A DNA stretch of 64,000 nucleotides. It comes from Enterobacter asburiae. GTDB taxonomy: Bacteria > Pseudomonadota > Gammaproteobacteria > Enterobacterales > Enterobacteriaceae. Position 1 is the first letter of the stretch. The number at the start of each line of letters is the position of its first letter. The translations under genes and the position numbers were made by a program. Location: NCBI GenBank assembly GCA_011754535.1, contig JAAQVN010000001.1:1984001-2048000 (forward strand), in the 5' to 3' direction. This document shows positions 50,049 through 57,854 of the stretch, piece by piece. Below the pieces are notes generated by a model. That model made no database searches. It was not told the DNA's origin and saw nothing but the letters and a program-made list of their open reading frames with translations.

Positions 50049-50678
50049 TCAGTATCGGGCAGGAAGCTTGTTGATCCTGATGAGTCGGCCTTCTTCGATT
50101 TCGATAAATCCGCCGGTTTTTAAATCCGCCAGAATACGCATTACGCCGCTGCGGGAGAGCTGGGTTTTCTCCCGGATATACCTTTCCGCCGTCACGCTGC
50201 TGCGATAGCTCTCATCTTCCTCCATCAGCTTTATCAGCTGCTGGCGAATCATCTCATACGCCGTCGGGGCGCCCTGCGGCATTACATTGTTATAAAGACG
50301 GCTATACACAAACATGAGTTGCTTCGAGAGCAGCCCCCACAGCGCCTTATCTTTAATAATCTCATTCACCCGCGCGGTGGAGAGCGTGCCAATCAGGCAC
50401 GGGCTAACCGTCTTGATATAATCATTAAAATAGATATCGGTGAGGTTAGCGAGGCCGAACACGGCGGGGCTGCGGGCCGTAGACAGCATCATATCGTCGC
50501 TTCTTCTGTAGATAGCGACCGTCCCCTCAAGAATTAAATAGCACATTCCCTGACCGTTGATCTGGAGGTCAAGCCGCTCGCCGCGAGCGGTGCGTCGCGT
50601 TGTGCAATCAGGCTGTAAGTGTGAAATAAGCTCTTGTGCGTAAGGTGAGCCGCGGTGAGACGTTTCTGGAAGGGACAT
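50049..50678 (-). CDS. Crp/FNR-fold regulator, IprA-like (paralogue 1)
   Basis: 209-aa DNA-binding protein resembling E. coli IprA/YaiV. An N-terminal cyclic-nucleotide-binding-like barrel (CYLILEGTVAIYRRSDD, about 45-61) lacks the phosphate-binding RxSE signature of true cAMP sensors. A C-terminal winged helix has the recognition segment LSRSGVMRILADLKTGGFIEI (about 173) and the protein ends INKLPARY. It lies 70 bp downstream of its paralogue, same strand, probably one operon. Likely a regulator of the adjacent fimbrial genes; inferred. Confidence 0.78.
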   Translation of the reverse strand: MSLPETSHRGSPYAQELISHLQPDCTTRRTARGERLDLQINGQGMCYLILEGTVAIYRRSDDMMLSTARSPAVFGLANLTDIYFNDYIKTVSPCLIGTLSTARVNEIIKDKALWGLLSKQLMFVYSRLYNNVMPQGAPTAYEMIRQQLIKLMEEDESYRSSVTAERYIREKTQLSRSGVMRILADLKTGGFIEIEEGRLIRINKLPARY

Positions 50679-50747: not shown

Positions 50748-51407
50748 TCAATATTTACGTGGCAGATGGTGAATTTCACGCAGCACACCGCGCTCCATGG
50801 TGATGTACTTGCCGGTCCGCAGTTCCGACAGAATACGCATAATTCCGCTACGTGAAAGATACGTCCGGCTTTTGATGTAGGCTGCCGCCGTCGTATTGTG
50901 CCGTATGGCGTCCGGCTCCTGCATCAGCTCAACAAGCTGGAACCGGATGATATCGTAGGCAGACATTTGCGATATTTGCGCGCAATGTTCGTATACCCGC
51001 GAGGCGGTATAAATAAGCAGCTTTGAAAAGTGCTCCCATAAATCATGCTGCGACACAATCTGGTTAAAGCTTTCCAGGGGCACGCGGGCGATTTCCGCGG
51101 TTTCCAGCGCCCTGACGTAAAGATGCTCAGAGGAGAATTGACTGCTCACGCCCAGAATAAAAGGCGCTGACTCAGAGTTTAATACAATACCGTCACCGCG
51201 GCGATGAAGCGCCACGCTGCCCTGGATAAGCAAAAAGCACTGCCGTACATCATCTTTATAATAATGAACCGTTTCACCCCGGGCGATGATCATTCTCTTC
51301 GCTGCCGGGACCACATGGTTAATCAGCGTGTCTATATGGAATAACGGTTTTAAATCCAGAGCGGATGACGGCTGATTATTCAGCGGGGTGGTTAAACGTG
51401 TATTCAT
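50748..51407 (-). CDS. Crp/FNR-fold regulator, IprA-like (paralogue 2)
   Basis: 219-aa relative of the neighbouring regulator: barrel segment CFLLIQGSVALHRRGDG (about 76) and winged helix with LSRSGIMRILSELRTGKYITM (about 184), ending HHLPRKY. The recognition core LSRSG-V/I-MRIL is shared by both paralogues, so they may read the same DNA site. ATG 51407 follows GAGGTATCTT; an open frame continues to 51491 without support. Divergent from fimA across 405 bp that hold three palindromes. Confidence 0.78.
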   Translation of the reverse strand: MNTRLTTPLNNQPSSALDLKPLFHIDTLINHVVPAAKRMIIARGETVHYYKDDVRQCFLLIQGSVALHRRGDGIVLNSESAPFILGVSSQFSSEHLYVRALETAEIARVPLESFNQIVSQHDLWEHFSKLLIYTASRVYEHCAQISQMSAYDIIRFQLVELMQEPDAIRHNTTAAAYIKSRTYLSRSGIMRILSELRTGKYITMERGVLREIHHLPRKY

Positions 51408-51499
51408 AAGATACCTCACATCGACTGCTTGTGTGATCATTTTTTGATCTGCGAAGAGAATTATCTTAAAAATTAATAACTCAGGGAACATTCTGCAGA

Positions 51500-51515
51500 G
51501 GTCTAAAAGTAGACC
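51500..51515. promoter_or_regulatory. GTCTA-N4-TAGAC box 1
   Basis: GGTCTA-AAAG-TAGACC, a perfect 6-bp dyad 93 bp upstream of regulator paralogue 2. First of three copies in the regulator-fimbria gap (51408-51812), which otherwise holds AT-rich sequence and an AT hairpin at 51735-51755. Confidence 0.7.
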
Positions 51516-51565
51516 GGGGAGCTTTTTCTATCTAACTGTTTGAATGCTAGAGAGAATTTATTTAA

Positions 51566-51579
51566 GTCTATTAATAGAC
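51566..51579. promoter_or_regulatory. GTCTA-N4-TAGAC box 2
   Basis: GTCTATTAATAGAC, a perfect 14-bp palindrome, centre 65 bp from box 1. Confidence 0.7.
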
Positions 51580-51638
51580 CTGAAGCAATACGTGATAAGA
51601 ATTGTCAAAAATGAATGTTTCTTTTTTGTTAAATCTGA

Positions 51639-51652
51639 GTCTACAGCTAGAC
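51639..51652. promoter_or_regulatory. GTCTA-N4-TAGAC box 3
   Basis: GTCTACAGCTAGAC, half-sites identical to boxes 1 and 2, centre 73 bp from box 2 and about 167 bp before fimA. Confidence 0.7.
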
Positions 51653-51812
51653 CATATAACCGTTGTCCTGGTGAAAAGAATTATATAAATTTTAACCAGG
51701 CAGTAAGAAAATACTTAAGCCGTTTATTGGAGAATAAAAACCTTCAGGGTTTTTATCGGCTTTCTACTGCATGAATCTCAGTAATAAATAAAGTGATACA
51801 GGGTAGAGCATT

Positions 51813-52343
51813 ATGAAAAAGCAATTAATGATGGCAATGTTTGCAGCCAGTTCTGTACTGACCATGACAAATGCATTCGCAGCGGCAGGTACCGTTAATT
51901 TTAACGGTAATATTCTTGATTCTGCCTGCGATGTAGATGTGGCTTCGCAGAACCAGGTGGTGGTGCTGGGCGATTATAATAAAACGGAATTCCCGGTTAC
52001 GGGTTCCAGAACGGCTGCAACACGATTTGATATTGTACTGAAAAACTGTCCGGTTACGGTTACCAGCGCAAAAGTCCGTTTCGACGGCACGCCGGATCCA
52101 ACCAATGCCAACCTTCTGGCAATTGATTCGTCGGTGGCAGGGGCGGCAACAGGGGTGGCGATTAACCTGATGTCAGCGGATAAGGCCGATCTGCCGTTAC
52201 ACAGCAGCAATAATTATTCCTATGTACTCAGCAGTACAACGGATAATACGCTAAATTTTTACGCGCAGTATATTTCCACTGAAGCAACGGTAACCGCCGG
52301 TCCTGCAAATTCCGTGGCTAATTTCTCCGTTGTCTATAACTGA
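51813..52343 (+). CDS. major fimbrial subunit (type 1 family)
   Basis: 176-aa pilin. Signal peptide residues 1-24 (MKKQLMMAMF...NAFA), then the mature FimA-type domain with the disulfide pair in ILDSACDVD and LKNCPVT, and the C-terminal beta-strand NSVANFSVVYN with the penultimate Tyr recognised by the chaperone. First gene of the fimbrial operon, with the usual position for the main shaft subunit. Confidence 0.9.
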   Translation: MKKQLMMAMFAASSVLTMTNAFAAAGTVNFNGNILDSACDVDVASQNQVVVLGDYNKTEFPVTGSRTAATRFDIVLKNCPVTVTSAKVRFDGTPDPTNANLLAIDSSVAGAATGVAINLMSADKADLPLHSSNNYSYVLSSTTDNTLNFYAQYISTEATVTAGPANSVANFSVVYN

Positions 52344-52404
52344 TTTTTCTTGACGGAAACAATTGGGGGGCCGTCTGTTGGCCCCTTTGTTATTGAGGTA
52401 TAAA

Positions 52405-53082
52405 ATGTATTTTCTGAGTAAAACTTTACTTGCCTGCGTGTTTCTTTCAGCCGGTATTTCTCAAGCCACTGCGGGTGTGGTCATTGGCGGGACGCGCGTT
52501 ATTTATGATGGCAATAAAAAAGAGTCTTCTATTAGCGTCACGAACCCCGACACGGCACCGTATTTAATTCAGTCGTGGGTAGAGTCGCAAAACGGAAGTG
52601 CTGAGAAAACACCTTTTATTATCACGCCACCACTCTACCGCCTGGATAAAGGCCAGCAGAACGTGGAACGTATTGTATTAGCAGGTTCGGTTGCCCAGGA
52701 TAAAGAGTCGCTCTACTGGCTAAATATTAAGTCTATTCCTGCGGCATCGCGAAAAGAAAATACGCTGCAAATTGCGGTAAAAACCCGCATTAAATTGATC
52801 TATCGTCCAGCGGCCCTGAAAGGGGTCATTCCTGAAGAGCTGGCAGATAAATTAACCTGGCAGCGTAGCGGGAATCAGATTCAGGTCACTAACCCAACTA
52901 ACGTGGTAATGAATTTCAATGAAATCCGCGTGAATGGTAAAAAGCTCGAGGACGTAACTTATGTACTTCCCGGGGCTAGCGCACGGTTTGATTTGCCGAA
53001 AGGTATTACCGGCGGTTCGGTAACGTTCAGGTTAATTAATGATTACGGTGGTACCGGAAATGTGCATAACGCCACCCTGTAA
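52405..53082 (+). CDS. fimbrial periplasmic chaperone
   Basis: 225-aa PapD/FimC-like chaperone that completes and escorts subunits by donor-strand complementation. Signal peptide to about residue 24 (SQATA), first Ig domain with GTRVIYDGNKKESSISVTN and the conserved basic pocket, then the chaperone signature region LYWLNIKSIPA (about 107) and KLIYRPAAL (about 132). ATG 52405 has GAGG upstream. Confidence 0.92.
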   Translation: MYFLSKTLLACVFLSAGISQATAGVVIGGTRVIYDGNKKESSISVTNPDTAPYLIQSWVESQNGSAEKTPFIITPPLYRLDKGQQNVERIVLAGSVAQDKESLYWLNIKSIPAASRKENTLQIAVKTRIKLIYRPAALKGVIPEELADKLTWQRSGNQIQVTNPTNVVMNFNEIRVNGKKLEDVTYVLPGASARFDLPKGITGGSVTFRLINDYGGTGNVHNATL

Positions 53083-53130
53083 TTCGTATTGTGCCAGAGG
53101 CCCTCTTTATTCTCGGTATGGAGTAACGTC

Positions 53131-55659
53131 GTGATTAGTCATAATAAGCAGGCGGTTTTATTTAATCCGGCACTGTTAATCGCTGTCGTACTCGGTTCGG
53201 TTACCGAGACCGCTTATGCAGGTGAGTATTTTAACCCTGAGTTGATTGAACTGGACAACCCTGGCATGAAAGGCGCCGATCTTTCGGCGTTTGAATCCGG
53301 TTCGCAACTGCCCGGCACCTATCGCGTTGATGTGCTCATCGGCGGGCAGGTTGTTGACACGCGCGAGATCAGATTTGACGCGGTAAAAAACGCGGAAGGC
53401 GAGACGTCCTTGCAGCCCTGCCTGAGCGTGGCGCAGCTTAAAAGCTGGGGGGTAAAAACCGAGCTATTTCCTGACCTGAATTCAGGCGGCGAATGTGCGA
53501 AGCTCTCGGCGATCCCGCAGGCGTCAACCGCGTTTATTTTCAGTGCCCAGCACCTTGAGATTACGATTCCACAGGCGGCGCTGTCACCGCAGGCTCGCGG
53601 ATATGTGCCGCCAGAAATGTGGGACGAGGGGATCACCGCCGCGCTGCTTAACTACAGTCTGAGCGGCTCAAACAGCTGGGGACGTGACGGCAACAGCAGT
53701 AACACGAACAGCCAGTACGCCAACCTGCGTCCGGGCATTAACGTCGGTCCATGGCGGATCCGCAACTATTCCACCTGGAGCCGCGACGGCAGCGGTAAAG
53801 ACAAATGGGACACGGTCTACACCTACGTGCAGCGGGCGATCGTTCCGCTGAAGGCTCAGCTCACGACCGGCGACAGCGCCTCTCCGGCTGACGTATTTGA
53901 CAGTATTCCATTCCGGGGGGCGCAGCTGGCCTCTGACGATGACATGATGCCTGACTCGTTGAAAGGCTATGCTCCGGTGGTGCGCGGTATTGCCCGCACC
54001 AATGCACAGGTCATCATTCGTCAAAATGGCTACCAGATTGCTCAGAGCGATGTGGCGCCGGGGGCGTTTGAAATTACGGATATATACCCCACTGGCGGCG
54101 CGGGTGACCTCGACGTTACCGTGAAAGAGAGCGACGGCAGCGAGCAGCACTTCACCGTGGCCTTTGCTTCACTGCCGGTATTACAGCGTGAAGGGCGTTT
54201 TAAGTATGCGGTAACCGCAGGCCAGTACCGATCCTATAGCAGCGAAGTTGATAAAACCCCGTTCGCACAGTTGACCGGGATCTACGGCCTGCCGCATGGC
54301 CTGACGCTCTACGGCGGTTTCCAGGAATCGAGCAAGTATCAGTCTCTGGCTGCAGGGATCGGTAAAAACATGGGCGACTTAGGCGCCTTCTCGACGGATG
54401 TTACTCAGGCGTGGTCAACCCCACAAAATCTGCCGGGAAGTAGCGGTCAGTCCTGGCGCATTCGCTACAGCAAGAACTTTGTTGAGACGGGAACCAACTT
54501 CGCCATCGCGGGCTACCGCTATTCAACCAGCGGCTACTACGGAATGCAGGAGGTGCTGGATTCCTATGGTGACAGCAGCGCGCTGCAGAACCGACGTCGT
54601 AACCGGGCCGAGCTGACGATGAGCCAGAACATCGGTCAGAACCTGGGATCGCTCATGCTCAGCGCCGTACGTGAAGATTACTGGAATTCAGGCAGGACCA
54701 CAGCGTCTTACAGCGCCGGGTACAACAACGCCTGGAAAAGCGTGAGCTATGGGATCACCTATACCTACAGTGAAAACGGCAGTACTGACGGCAACAGTGG
54801 TTCATCCCGCAACGGTAAGGATCAGCAGATTGCACTGAACGTCAGCGTGCCGTTAGAGGCCTTCTTGCCGCGTACCTGGGCTAATTACAGCATGAACGCC
54901 AGCAAGAACAACGGCACGACGCACAGCGTCGGCCTTAACGGCACCGCGCTGGAAAACAACGCGCTCAGCTGGAACGTACAGCAAGGTTACGGAACGGATT
55001 CCGTGGGATATACCGGCAATGCCAGCGCTGATTTTAAAGGCACGTATGGTGAAGTCTATGCGGGGTACGGTTACGACAAGGGCAGCGATCGTCTGAACTA
55101 TGGATTGCAGGGGGTGATCCTTGCCCACGCCGACGGGGTGACCTTCTCGCAGCCACTGGGTGAAACCAATGTGCTGATAAAAGCACCCGGCGCGAAAGGG
55201 GTGAGCATCCAGAATCAGAGCGGCGCAAAAACCGACTGGCGTGGCTACACCGCAGTGAGCAACCTGACGCCGTATCGCAAGAACGACGTGGCGCTGATGA
55301 CCGATACGCTACCGGATGACGTGGAGCTGGAACTGACCAACAAGACCGTGATACCGACCCGCGGTGCGGTGGTCAGGGCGGATTATGTGGCAAATGTAGG
55401 GATGCGGGTGTTGATGACGCTTAAATACCGTAATGGACAGCCGGTACCGTTTGGCGCTACCGCCACTGTCAAAGGGCAGAACGGCAACAGTTTTATTGTT
55501 GGGGATAAAGGCCAGGTTTATTTGACTGGGTTAAGTCCAGACGGAACGTTATTGGTTAAATGGGGTAGTGATAATTCAGAACAATGTCAGGTTAACTATG
55601 CGATTAATGAAAAAGATAAGTCAAATAATATTCCTGTCGTTGTTTATGATTGTCGTTGA
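53131..55659 (+). CDS. fimbrial outer-membrane usher
   Basis: 842-aa PapC/FimD-like usher through which subunits are polymerised. Signal peptide to about residue 31 (TAYAG), N-terminal chaperone-binding domain beginning YFNPELIEL, a 24-strand pore with plug (TTGDSASPADVFDSIPFRG, about 245), and two C-terminal domains ending in a Cys-containing VVYDCR. The start is taken at GTG 53131, seven bases after GGAG; an upstream GTG at 53089 is in frame. Confidence 0.92.
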   Translation: MISHNKQAVLFNPALLIAVVLGSVTETAYAGEYFNPELIELDNPGMKGADLSAFESGSQLPGTYRVDVLIGGQVVDTREIRFDAVKNAEGETSLQPCLSVAQLKSWGVKTELFPDLNSGGECAKLSAIPQASTAFIFSAQHLEITIPQAALSPQARGYVPPEMWDEGITAALLNYSLSGSNSWGRDGNSSNTNSQYANLRPGINVGPWRIRNYSTWSRDGSGKDKWDTVYTYVQRAIVPLKAQLTTGDSASPADVFDSIPFRGAQLASDDDMMPDSLKGYAPVVRGIARTNAQVIIRQNGYQIAQSDVAPGAFEITDIYPTGGAGDLDVTVKESDGSEQHFTVAFASLPVLQREGRFKYAVTAGQYRSYSSEVDKTPFAQLTGIYGLPHGLTLYGGFQESSKYQSLAAGIGKNMGDLGAFSTDVTQAWSTPQNLPGSSGQSWRIRYSKNFVETGTNFAIAGYRYSTSGYYGMQEVLDSYGDSSALQNRRRNRAELTMSQNIGQNLGSLMLSAVREDYWNSGRTTASYSAGYNNAWKSVSYGITYTYSENGSTDGNSGSSRNGKDQQIALNVSVPLEAFLPRTWANYSMNASKNNGTTHSVGLNGTALENNALSWNVQQGYGTDSVGYTGNASADFKGTYGEVYAGYGYDKGSDRLNYGLQGVILAHADGVTFSQPLGETNVLIKAPGAKGVSIQNQSGAKTDWRGYTAVSNLTPYRKNDVALMTDTLPDDVELELTNKTVIPTRGAVVRADYVANVGMRVLMTLKYRNGQPVPFGATATVKGQNGNSFIVGDKGQVYLTGLSPDGTLLVKWGSDNSEQCQVNYAINEKDKSNNIPVVVYDCR

Positions 55660-55668
55660 GGATTAATT

Positions 55669-56634
55669 ATGTATTCAGTAAAAAAATATCGGCCGTATGG
55701 GCAATTCATTTTTCTGGCACTGTTATGGTTATGCTCTCTGCGTGTTGAAGCAGACTGTAAGGTTGATGGGAGCAGTGGATTTAATCCAGTACCACCCTTT
55801 AACATACAGCAGCCCGCCGTGACGGTTCAGCGTGATGCTCCCGTTGGGACGGTAATCAGTCGCTTTATTACCAATGGCAGTGGTGATATGGATCTTTGTA
55901 TAGGTCCGGGGACGATTACTTATGAAATGAGTATGTTCAACACGCCTTCGTCAATAACTAATTATTATAATACAAATGTCCCTGGTGTGGGTCTTAGTTT
56001 GCAATTTGTTACTACAGACTTTTACTTTTCCAAAGTCAGACAGTATTCATTTCCGATACCGACAAAAATCGTTGTTTATCCTCTGGAGGTGACGTTAATA
56101 AAGACGGGGGATATTACGTCAGGCGTGATCGGCTCTGGATTACTGGCAACGGCTCATGGTGATGATAATGTTCAATCGTTAACGGTTAACTATGCTGGCA
56201 ATAAAGTGACGCAATTAGCATGCGCAATAACAACGCCTAATTTAACTTTTCCTATCGGTGATATATCGGCATCGGCTTTTGGCAATACTGTCGGCACCAT
56301 TCCTTCTGGTGCTCAAAGCACGCAGAATCTGGGCCTTGATTGCGATGCCGATGCGAATATTAACGTCATGCTGCAGGGGATGCAAAACCCGGACGTCAGC
56401 ACTGACAGCGTATTAGCCTTGACTGGGCAAGGGAACGCGGACGTGGCGAAGGGGGTCGGCGTACAATTGCTATATAATGGGGCGCCTTTAGCGTTAAATA
56501 ACCGAATTGTTTTGAAACAATCCGCGGGTGGCCAGGAAACGTTCCCGATAACCGCCCGTTATTATCAGACTCAGGCGAGTGTTTCAACAGGCAAGGCCAA
56601 CGCATCAGCCACCCTTGACTTAACGTATCAGTAA
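55669..56634 (+). CDS. fimbrial tip adhesin-like protein
   Basis: 321-aa exported protein (signal peptide to about residue 28, RVEA-D) that looks like a two-domain FimH-type adhesin: a variable N-terminal region (30-180) and a C-terminal pilin domain beginning near QLACAITTPNLTFPIGDISASAF, with Cys partner in LGLDCDAD and the donor strand ASATLDLTYQ. Length near 300 aa and its place after the usher support a tip adhesin; the receptor is not predictable. Confidence 0.75.
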   Translation: MYSVKKYRPYGQFIFLALLWLCSLRVEADCKVDGSSGFNPVPPFNIQQPAVTVQRDAPVGTVISRFITNGSGDMDLCIGPGTITYEMSMFNTPSSITNYYNTNVPGVGLSLQFVTTDFYFSKVRQYSFPIPTKIVVYPLEVTLIKTGDITSGVIGSGLLATAHGDDNVQSLTVNYAGNKVTQLACAITTPNLTFPIGDISASAFGNTVGTIPSGAQSTQNLGLDCDADANINVMLQGMQNPDVSTDSVLALTGQGNADVAKGVGVQLLYNGAPLALNNRIVLKQSAGGQETFPITARYYQTQASVSTGKANASATLDLTYQ

Positions 56635-57158
56635 TGGATAACGCGATGAATATTTTGCACGCGGCAGCGCTTGCCGCCACGTTAATAAGCTGCAATACCT
56701 TTGCAGGGGACGCTGTTAACGTCAGCGTTACCGGAAATATTATTGCCTCGCCCTGCATATTTAACGGAGGGAATGACAATATGGATATTAACCTCGGCAA
56801 TATTCAGGCATCAAACATGTCTACGCCGGGGTCATCTTCCGATCCTGTGCCGTTTAACCTGATGTTTACCCAGTGTCCGGCTGGCACTAGCAGCGTAACG
56901 GTCTCATTTACCGGTAACCCCGATCCCGTCGCGGGGGCGGATTACTACATGAACAGCGGTTCTGCCACTAATGTCGCGATAGCAATGAGTGAGGCGGCAA
57001 CCGGTGCGTTAAAGGGGACGGGGACAAGCATTACGCAGACGATCGCAGCAGACAGAACCGCAACGATGGCCATGCAGGCCGCGGTGACATCCTTTACCGG
57101 CGGGGCGACGCCGGGGAACATCAGCGCTGTTGTTGTCATGACGATGCAGTACAACTGA
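56634..57158 (+). CDS. minor fimbrial subunit
   Basis: 174-aa pilin-like protein, signal peptide to about residue 24 (CNTFAG), disulfide pair in IIASPCIFN and FTQCPAG, C-terminal strand AVVVMTMQYN. ATG 56634 shares a base with the adhesin stop (TAATG); ATG 56646 is an alternative start. It probably acts as an adaptor or terminator subunit; placing it last is unusual, since adhesins more often come last. Confidence 0.82.
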   Translation: MDNAMNILHAAALAATLISCNTFAGDAVNVSVTGNIIASPCIFNGGNDNMDINLGNIQASNMSTPGSSSDPVPFNLMFTQCPAGTSSVTVSFTGNPDPVAGADYYMNSGSATNVAIAMSEAATGALKGTGTSITQTIAADRTATMAMQAAVTSFTGGATPGNISAVVVMTMQYN

Positions 57159-57206: not shown

Positions 57207-57854
57207 ATGCTGAATATTCTCATTAAAGAGACTGATTTATTTTTTAGAGACGGATTGCAGCGTTTTCTTGTGGATTTCTTCACCCATAATTTCAGGCATT
57301 CGCTCCATTTTGACGTTGAACTTTCTCATGAACATGTTAGTGCCGCCGATATTATTTTTCTCGCGTTATGTCAGGGGGAAACCCTGACCTGCTATCCTGA
57401 ATTACTGGCGCGCAAAAAAGGAATTGTGGTTGGTCTGGTCGAGGATGAGCACCGTTTCTCGGCATGTCCGTCCTGTTATCAGGATATGATATTTCTCTCT
57501 CGGCGCACCTCGCTTGACAGAATGACCGAGACGCTGTTTATCGCATGGTATCGCACCCAATTACCCAGCTTTCGCTGGAAAAATAAAAGCTGCGATGAAT
57601 GCCAGCACAAGATATTATCGCTGCAGCAAATTCGCGTTATGGTGCATTTTTACAGAGGATTATCGGTAGGGCAGATTGCGGATAAGCTTAACACCAGTGA
57701 TAAAACCATTTTTACCCATAAATATCTGCTGATGCAGAAATTCGACCTGCGTAGTGATTTTGAACTCATGGCCTTGATCCACCGGATGGTAGAGAAGAAT
57801 ACCTGTCCGAACCGGTTGCGTGACTATCTAATTGATAATCAGCTGCAAAGCTAA
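57207..57854 (+). CDS. LuxR-type HTH regulator at the end of the fimbrial operon
   Basis: 215-aa protein with a receiver-like but poorly conserved N-terminal half and a LuxR C-terminal helix-turn-helix (LSLQQIRVMVHFYRGLSVGQIADKLNTSDKTIFTHKY, about 143-180). Two Cys pairs occur (ACPSC at about 90 and KSCDEC at about 128), which could bind metal or sense redox; this is speculation. It resembles fimbrial regulators such as FimW/FimZ in place and fold. Short 48-bp gap from the last pilin gene suggests co-transcription. Confidence 0.75.
   Translation: MLNILIKETDLFFRDGLQRFLVDFFTHNFRHSLHFDVELSHEHVSAADIIFLALCQGETLTCYPELLARKKGIVVGLVEDEHRFSACPSCYQDMIFLSRRTSLDRMTETLFIAWYRTQLPSFRWKNKSCDECQHKILSLQQIRVMVHFYRGLSVGQIADKLNTSDKTIFTHKYLLMQKFDLRSDFELMALIHRMVEKNTCPNRLRDYLIDNQLQS

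Follow-up and report, generated by a model that had tools for sequence, protein, structure and literature searches.

The window, a stretch of 64,000 nucleotides from an Enterobacter asburiae genome, contains a fimbrial island that is flanked by ydiJ-menI on one side and a formate dehydrogenase gene on the other. Two paralogous regulator genes (34% identity) lie on the reverse strand, R1 at 50049-50678 and R2 at 50748-51407. On the forward strand follows a chaperone-usher operon (51813-57158), which encodes the fimbrial major subunit (51813-52343), the chaperone (52405-53082), the usher (53131-55659), a tip adhesin-like protein (55669-56634) and a minor subunit (56634-57158). Behind the operon sits a gene for a LuxR-type (GerE) regulator (57207-57854, forward strand). 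Domain searches confirm the gene context given in the initial annotation, paired regulators beside a fimbrial operon, and place both regulators in HTH_46.

The window contains three exact matches to the palindrome GTCTA-N4-TAGAC, to which no strand is assigned. Box 1 (GTCTAAAAGTAGAC, 51501-51514) lies on the R2 side, box 2 (GTCTATTAATAGAC, 51566-51579) in the middle, and box 3 (GTCTACAGCTAGAC, 51639-51652) on the side of the fimbrial genes. All three had been noted in the initial annotation, which drew box 1 one base too wide at each end (51500-51515). The entire 4.96 Mb genome holds only four exact boxes, three in the window and one elsewhere, and dinucleotide-shuffled versions of the window contain 0.01 on average and never three (100 shuffles). 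Hence a chance origin of the boxes is excluded. Across 85 genomes from other genera of the family, each 3.5 Mb or larger, the mean is 0.39 boxes per genome.

Two of the boxes adjoin predicted promoters. A predicted fimA -10 element (TATAAA, 51684-51689, forward strand) begins 32 nt after box 3, which places the centre of the box at about -50 relative to the predicted start. On the reverse strand a predicted R2 -10 element (GATAAT, 51460-51465) begins 36 nt after box 1, with the box centre at about -54 relative to the predicted R2 start.

Both regulators match HTH_46 (PF15977) far above the gathering cut-off (87.8 and 88.2 bits against 29.3). For the cNMP-binding domain R2 scores above the Pfam cut-off and R1 below it. 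An AlphaFold2 model of the regulator (25 sequences; pLDDT 82, pTM 0.56) finds CRP (1i5z) as its best Foldseek match (E 3.9e-11, TM 0.53), with Vfr also among the best, and a profile search matches CRP as well (E 8e-4 to 3e-3). As modelled, the regulator is a member of the Crp/FNR superfamily, with a beta-roll sensor, a long dimer helix and a C-terminal winged helix. The putative recognition helix reads LSRSGIMRIL in R2 (residues 184-193) and LSRSGVMRIL in R1.

The initial annotation named conservation of the boxes alongside the regulator and fimbrial genes as the check on its proposal. We drew 60 genomes from the genus and 392 from the family; the loci counted in them are related by descent. 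Boxes are indeed kept: within the genus, a box that is exact or has a single mismatch stands upstream of 32 of 33 R2 orthologues (at least 54% identity), and the same holds for ten loci outside the genus. The only exception among the 33 is a second locus in genome G021 (L131). Adding three more distant loci, one with a box (L126) and two without (L128, L129), changes the count to 33 of 36. Where R2 is broken (G048), the locus has no box. Five further genomes carry a lone R1-type gene at the island site (L138-L142; 42 to 79% identity), without R2 and without fimbriae, and none of these five loci has a box near R1. Hence R2, the fimbriae and the boxes seem to come and go as a set. The best 120 of 327 related proteins include close relatives of R2 from Enterobacter, Klebsiella, Citrobacter and Raoultella; among named organisms, the loci themselves were read for the two-box scan and the plasmids described below. 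We found no E. coli DNA similar to the intergenic region or the pdeA promoter discussed below.

The 60 genus genomes contain 122 exact boxes. HTH_46-regulator/fimbrial loci account for 80 of them and the pdeA promoter for 26, together 106. Four more precede other fimbrial operons (L032, L119, L122, L124). Two lie between a LuxR-type/Wzi-type gene pair and a transporter gene (L037, L123), one between leuA-type genes and leuO (L121 4781), one ahead of a lipoprotein-like/FKBP operon (L120 4827), and two are intragenic (L036, L039). The leuO and FKBP cases both belong to genome G028; of its five boxes, the other three stand ahead of fimbrial operons. Another four boxes precede a small, presumably YqjD-like gene; two of these loci were read, and the other two were assigned by their identical centre only. 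At the two loci read (L035 4854, L150 5546), GTCTATCCTTAGAC lies about 20-35 nt upstream of this 90-aa gene, and its centre is common to four genus genomes. The last two boxes precede genes that we take to be antitoxin-like (L042, L043): GTCTAAATATAGAC stands directly upstream of the gene in both genomes (L042 993, L043 4661) and may be the operator of that antitoxin-like system itself.

Could the LuxR-type regulator downstream of the fimbrial genes be the protein that binds the boxes? Most genomes with R2 do have its gene in the island, and the two boxes next to LuxR-type and Wzi-type genes would suit such a role. However, at E<=1e-10 the LuxR-type protein has no relative in nine genomes whose fimbrial loci or pdeA promoter carry exact boxes (G011, G012, G016, G018, G028, G042, G044, G054, G056), among them the genome with five boxes. 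We therefore reject this candidate as very improbable, the more so since the class of the box tracks the helix of the HTH_46 protein, as described below.

The fourth box of the window genome precedes, by about 80 nt, a MASE1-GGDEF-EAL gene flanked by nupC and gltX (L034), which we take to be the pdeA/yfeA locus of E. coli; no NCBIfam name scores above cut-off for the protein. We could read this promoter in 57 of the 60 genus genomes (two yielded just a paralogue and one a truncated copy). A box is present in 35 (26 exact, 9 with one mismatch), always at -84 to -88 from the ATG, and absent in 22. In the window genome the box is followed by a predicted promoter, TTGATT-17-TATTAT, with the box centre near -48.5. 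A hand tally finds the pdeA box in 28 of the 36 genomes that have R1 (at least 42% identity) and in 7 of the 21 that lack it. As a side observation, a search of 30 genomes found five with one stop inside the pdeA frame; the pdeA box is absent from four of them (G031, G035, G051, G053) and present with one mismatch in the fifth (G046).

Palindromes that recur in a genome may also be structural or recombination elements, or a dispersed repeat, and not operators at all. When 84,980 species were scanned for pairs of boxes separated by 36 to 66 bp, 60 stretches were returned. Relatives of window proteins are present in eleven, each of which is an R2 locus (ten under the name Enterobacter, one 'Enterobacteriaceae bacterium 89'). 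Of the remaining 49, ten are scattered and 39 come from Streptococcus, where the same pattern occurs in tandem repeats in the three stretches inspected. In these (S. azizii, S. acidominimus and S. suis; L159-L217) GTCTA-N4-TAGAC is part of a longer hairpin-like unit repeated every 57 bp or so, which we regard as unrelated to the regulator boxes. The boxes described here share only their half-sites: centres and flanks differ, and the spacing within arrays varies. Furthermore, boxes are confined to few promoters, and single pdeA boxes keep a near-constant distance to the start codon. A structural or repeat origin is hence scarcely credible.

The pdeA promoter also raises the question whether a widespread transcription factor from outside the HTH_46 family binds the boxes, with R1 and R2 as mere neighbours. 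Seven of the 35 pdeA boxes, five of them exact, are kept in genomes without R1 and R2. Other HTH_46 proteins are present in these seven genomes, though, and none of the 60 genomes lacks an HTH_46 relative. The low number of boxes in the large genomes of other genera likewise speaks against a widespread factor. The main argument comes from a comparison of regulator helices and boxes.

For this comparison we classed 72 loci: the genus loci, R2-like matches from the family (30 of 392 genomes at E<=1e-40, 28 of these outside the genus), two Rahnella plasmid loci and a second regulator pair in G307. One R2 locus was scored per family genome; of four extra matches the G307 pair was added, and two in G373 and one in G436 were left out. 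The class was set by hand for the second G307 pair, the two Rahnella loci and G338. Boxes of the GTCTA-N4-TAGAC class occur at 45 loci (six with one-mismatch boxes only), and residue 188 of R2 is Gly in all 45. At 16 loci, all exact, the box is GTGTAATTTTACAC (the GTGTA class), and residue 188 is Ser in 14 and Thr in 2. Two loci have a hybrid box, one exact and one with a single mismatch, and nine have no box (L131 of G021, G003, G049, G039, G012, G018, G388, G201, G259). The second HTH_46 gene, where found and aligned, follows the same rule: Gly in 41 of 41 cases in the GTCTA class and Ser/Thr in 11 of 11 in the GTGTA class.

Four alignment columns separate the classes fully (156, 159, 188 and 215), and only 188 lies in the recognition helix. 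Residue 191 (Arg/Lys) fits the classes less well than residue 188 and was rejected as the switch, because GTCTA boxes are also found beside regulators with Lys191 (G235, G436, G373). Both classes can coexist. G307 carries them 8.5 kb apart, each regulator pair matched to its own box: GTCTAAATTTAGAC with LSRSGTMRIL/LSRSGIMRIL, and GTGTAATTTTACAC with LSRSSIMKIL/LSRSTIMKIL. GTGTAWWWWTACAC is found in all 14 Ser/Thr genomes, as a single copy in nine, and in one of eight Gly controls (G026, away from R2); the hybrid genomes have one intragenic copy (G265) and none (G338). A single widespread factor would not be expected to change its box together with the helix of a neighbouring HTH_46 protein, nor to use two classes in one genome, and we consider this alternative improbable.

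The number of independent changes is small. In a tree without fragments of up to 120 aa, with the genus thinned to 24 loci and without the Rahnella rows and the second G307 pair, the 14 R2 rows with Ser/Thr188 group as a single clade (support 99/91) inside the Gly rows. Helix and box of R2 hence switched on one branch, which counts as one event, not 16. G373, a neighbour of this clade, has Gly188 and a one-mismatch GTCTA box. Ser188 in the R1 proteins of G265, G338, G003 and G049 falls elsewhere in the tree, and two of these genomes (G265, G338) have the hybrid boxes.

Some loci do not follow the pattern. The R2-type genes of G388, G201 and L131 of G021 have the same helix yet no box, and none of the four half-site combinations was found upstream of the box-less G388, G201 and G259 or of L133-L135. 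G012 and G018 carry Ser188 but neither box class at the regulator; in these two genomes Ser188 belongs to the nearest HTH_46 protein, yet the pdeA box is GTCTA. G003 and G049 share GTGTATTTTCGGAT at about the expected distance, which is suggestive only. In the same two genomes ATCCA-N4-TGGAT palindromes with differing centres lie 75-88 nt upstream of an HTH_46 gene with the helix SGIMKML (L155, L157), perhaps a third operator class.

The GTGTA class has a counterpart to the pdeA box. In G307 and G223, which belong to the same genus, a GTGTA box lies 53 nt and 49 nt, respectively, upstream of a 741-codon open frame with an EAL domain (L371, L372). No EAL-type gene was seen near the three extra sites of G411, which lie on a small contig. 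Thus each operator class marks a gene of the c-di-GMP phosphodiesterase type, but not the same gene.

The hybrids invite a more specific reading, in which R1 and R2 would form a heterodimer with one subunit per half-site, and the third base of the half-site would be read as C by Gly188 and as G by Ser/Thr188. Both hybrid loci pair a Gly188 R2 with a Ser188 R1, and upstream of R2 stand GTGTAATTTTAGAC in G265 and, with one mismatch, GTGTAATTTTAGAT in G338. In G338 a second hybrid, GTCTATTTTTACAC, precedes an adhesin-like gene by about 110 nt, with a TATAAT that begins 34 nt further on. Exact hybrids are absent from 2,180,956 bases of other, partly overlapping loci. The two genomes count as one case because they belong to the same genus. 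Boxes also accompany R1- or R2-type genes that stand alone (L118, L125, L127, L352, L353), and there homodimers must suffice. We therefore put the heterodimer and its code forward tentatively, as a possibility with the odds against it.

Taken together, the Crp-fold HTH_46 regulators beside the boxes (R2, probably R1) very likely bind them and control the fimbriae, their own expression and pdeA. A regulator dimer would read one GTCTA per half-site with the helix LSRSGIMRIL. Since box 3 and box 1 adjoin predicted promoters, the regulators would control the fimbriae through the former and their own R2 gene through the latter, with box 2 as a further member of the array. Targets in trans would be the c-di-GMP phosphodiesterase-type gene pdeA and, in some species, other fimbrial operons. 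The initial annotation proposed that both paralogues bind, and this is partly supported. The covariation does tie the boxes to HTH_46 regulators. Because the R1 helix varies with that of R2, it is plausible that both paralogues read the box. The targets in trans, pdeA and other fimbrial operons, and the second operator class go beyond that proposal.

The position of the boxes gives a hint of the sign of regulation. Counted from the box, the -10-like element starts after 30 nt at pdeA, after 32-33 nt at the majority of fimbrial promoters and after 34-36 nt in many promoters of R2; some of the promoters compared have no clear element. In many relatives the predicted R2 element is [GC]ATAAT. GTCTA and GTGTA boxes keep a similar distance to the -10-like element of the regulator gene. 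Boxes sit just upstream of the -35 region, which by prediction is poor at the fimbrial and R2 promoters of the window and good at pdeA. Boxes upstream of poor -35 elements favour activation as the probable sign at the fimbriae and R2. With its good promoter, pdeA could instead be repressed. Against the proposal, CRP sites of class I or II do not usually have their centre at about -48 to -54, as the boxes do. Looping is not part of our proposal because box spacings of 54 to 132 bp keep no common helical phase.

If correct, our proposal provides an operator for the HTH_46 (IprA) family, for which the literature search found none in print. It would also mean that in Enterobacter and its relatives a single local regulator connects fimbriae to a c-di-GMP phosphodiesterase gene. 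The correspondence between classes of helix and box, the presence of both classes in the same genome and the hybrid make this a natural case of regulator-operator co-change, which can be checked with unaltered natural proteins and promoters.

How do the regulators and their boxes compare with known systems? R1 and R2 match the model of the IprA/YaiV family (HTH_46, PF15977; NF008810) along most of their own sequence. They are not IprA itself: their scores of 74.7 and 67.1 bits are far below the equivalog cut-off of NF008810 (359), which makes them distant relatives. Fimbrial genes of Salmonella are reportedly influenced by IprA (PMC6527747, PMC12502779). Our search of the literature, partly accessible in full, found no published IprA binding site, no operator for PF15977 and no link between pdeA and fimbrial genes in Enterobacter cloacae. 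The initial annotation knew of no described operator of this sequence. A text search, with thin coverage of subscription journals, agrees and found nothing relevant.

FNR itself is rejected, since its 4Fe-4S cluster requires four cysteines and the regulators have too few (R2 only Cys57 and Cys142; R1 Cys25, Cys46 and Cys94). The FNR site is TTGAT-N4-ATCAA. The initial annotation's comparison with FNR holds for the Crp fold and for the layout of two 5-base half-sites 4 bases apart, and goes no further; the half-sites are unlike. NemR, a TetR-family regulator, binds TAGACC-N4-GGTCTA; this site shares the letters TAGAC and GTCTA with the box, in the opposite half-site order. Nor are the regulators CRP proper, which is activated by cAMP. 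The GE and RS residues of the cAMP phosphate-binding cassette of CRP are missing from the alignment with CRP 1i6x, so the cassette is not conserved. The CRP site, TGTGA-N6-TCACA, differs from the box in spacing and half-site. The likeness to CRP lies elsewhere: through the helix motif SR, R186 of R2 aligns with R180 of CRP, and the GTGTA variant and the CRP half-site have G-T-G in common at equal distances from the dyad.
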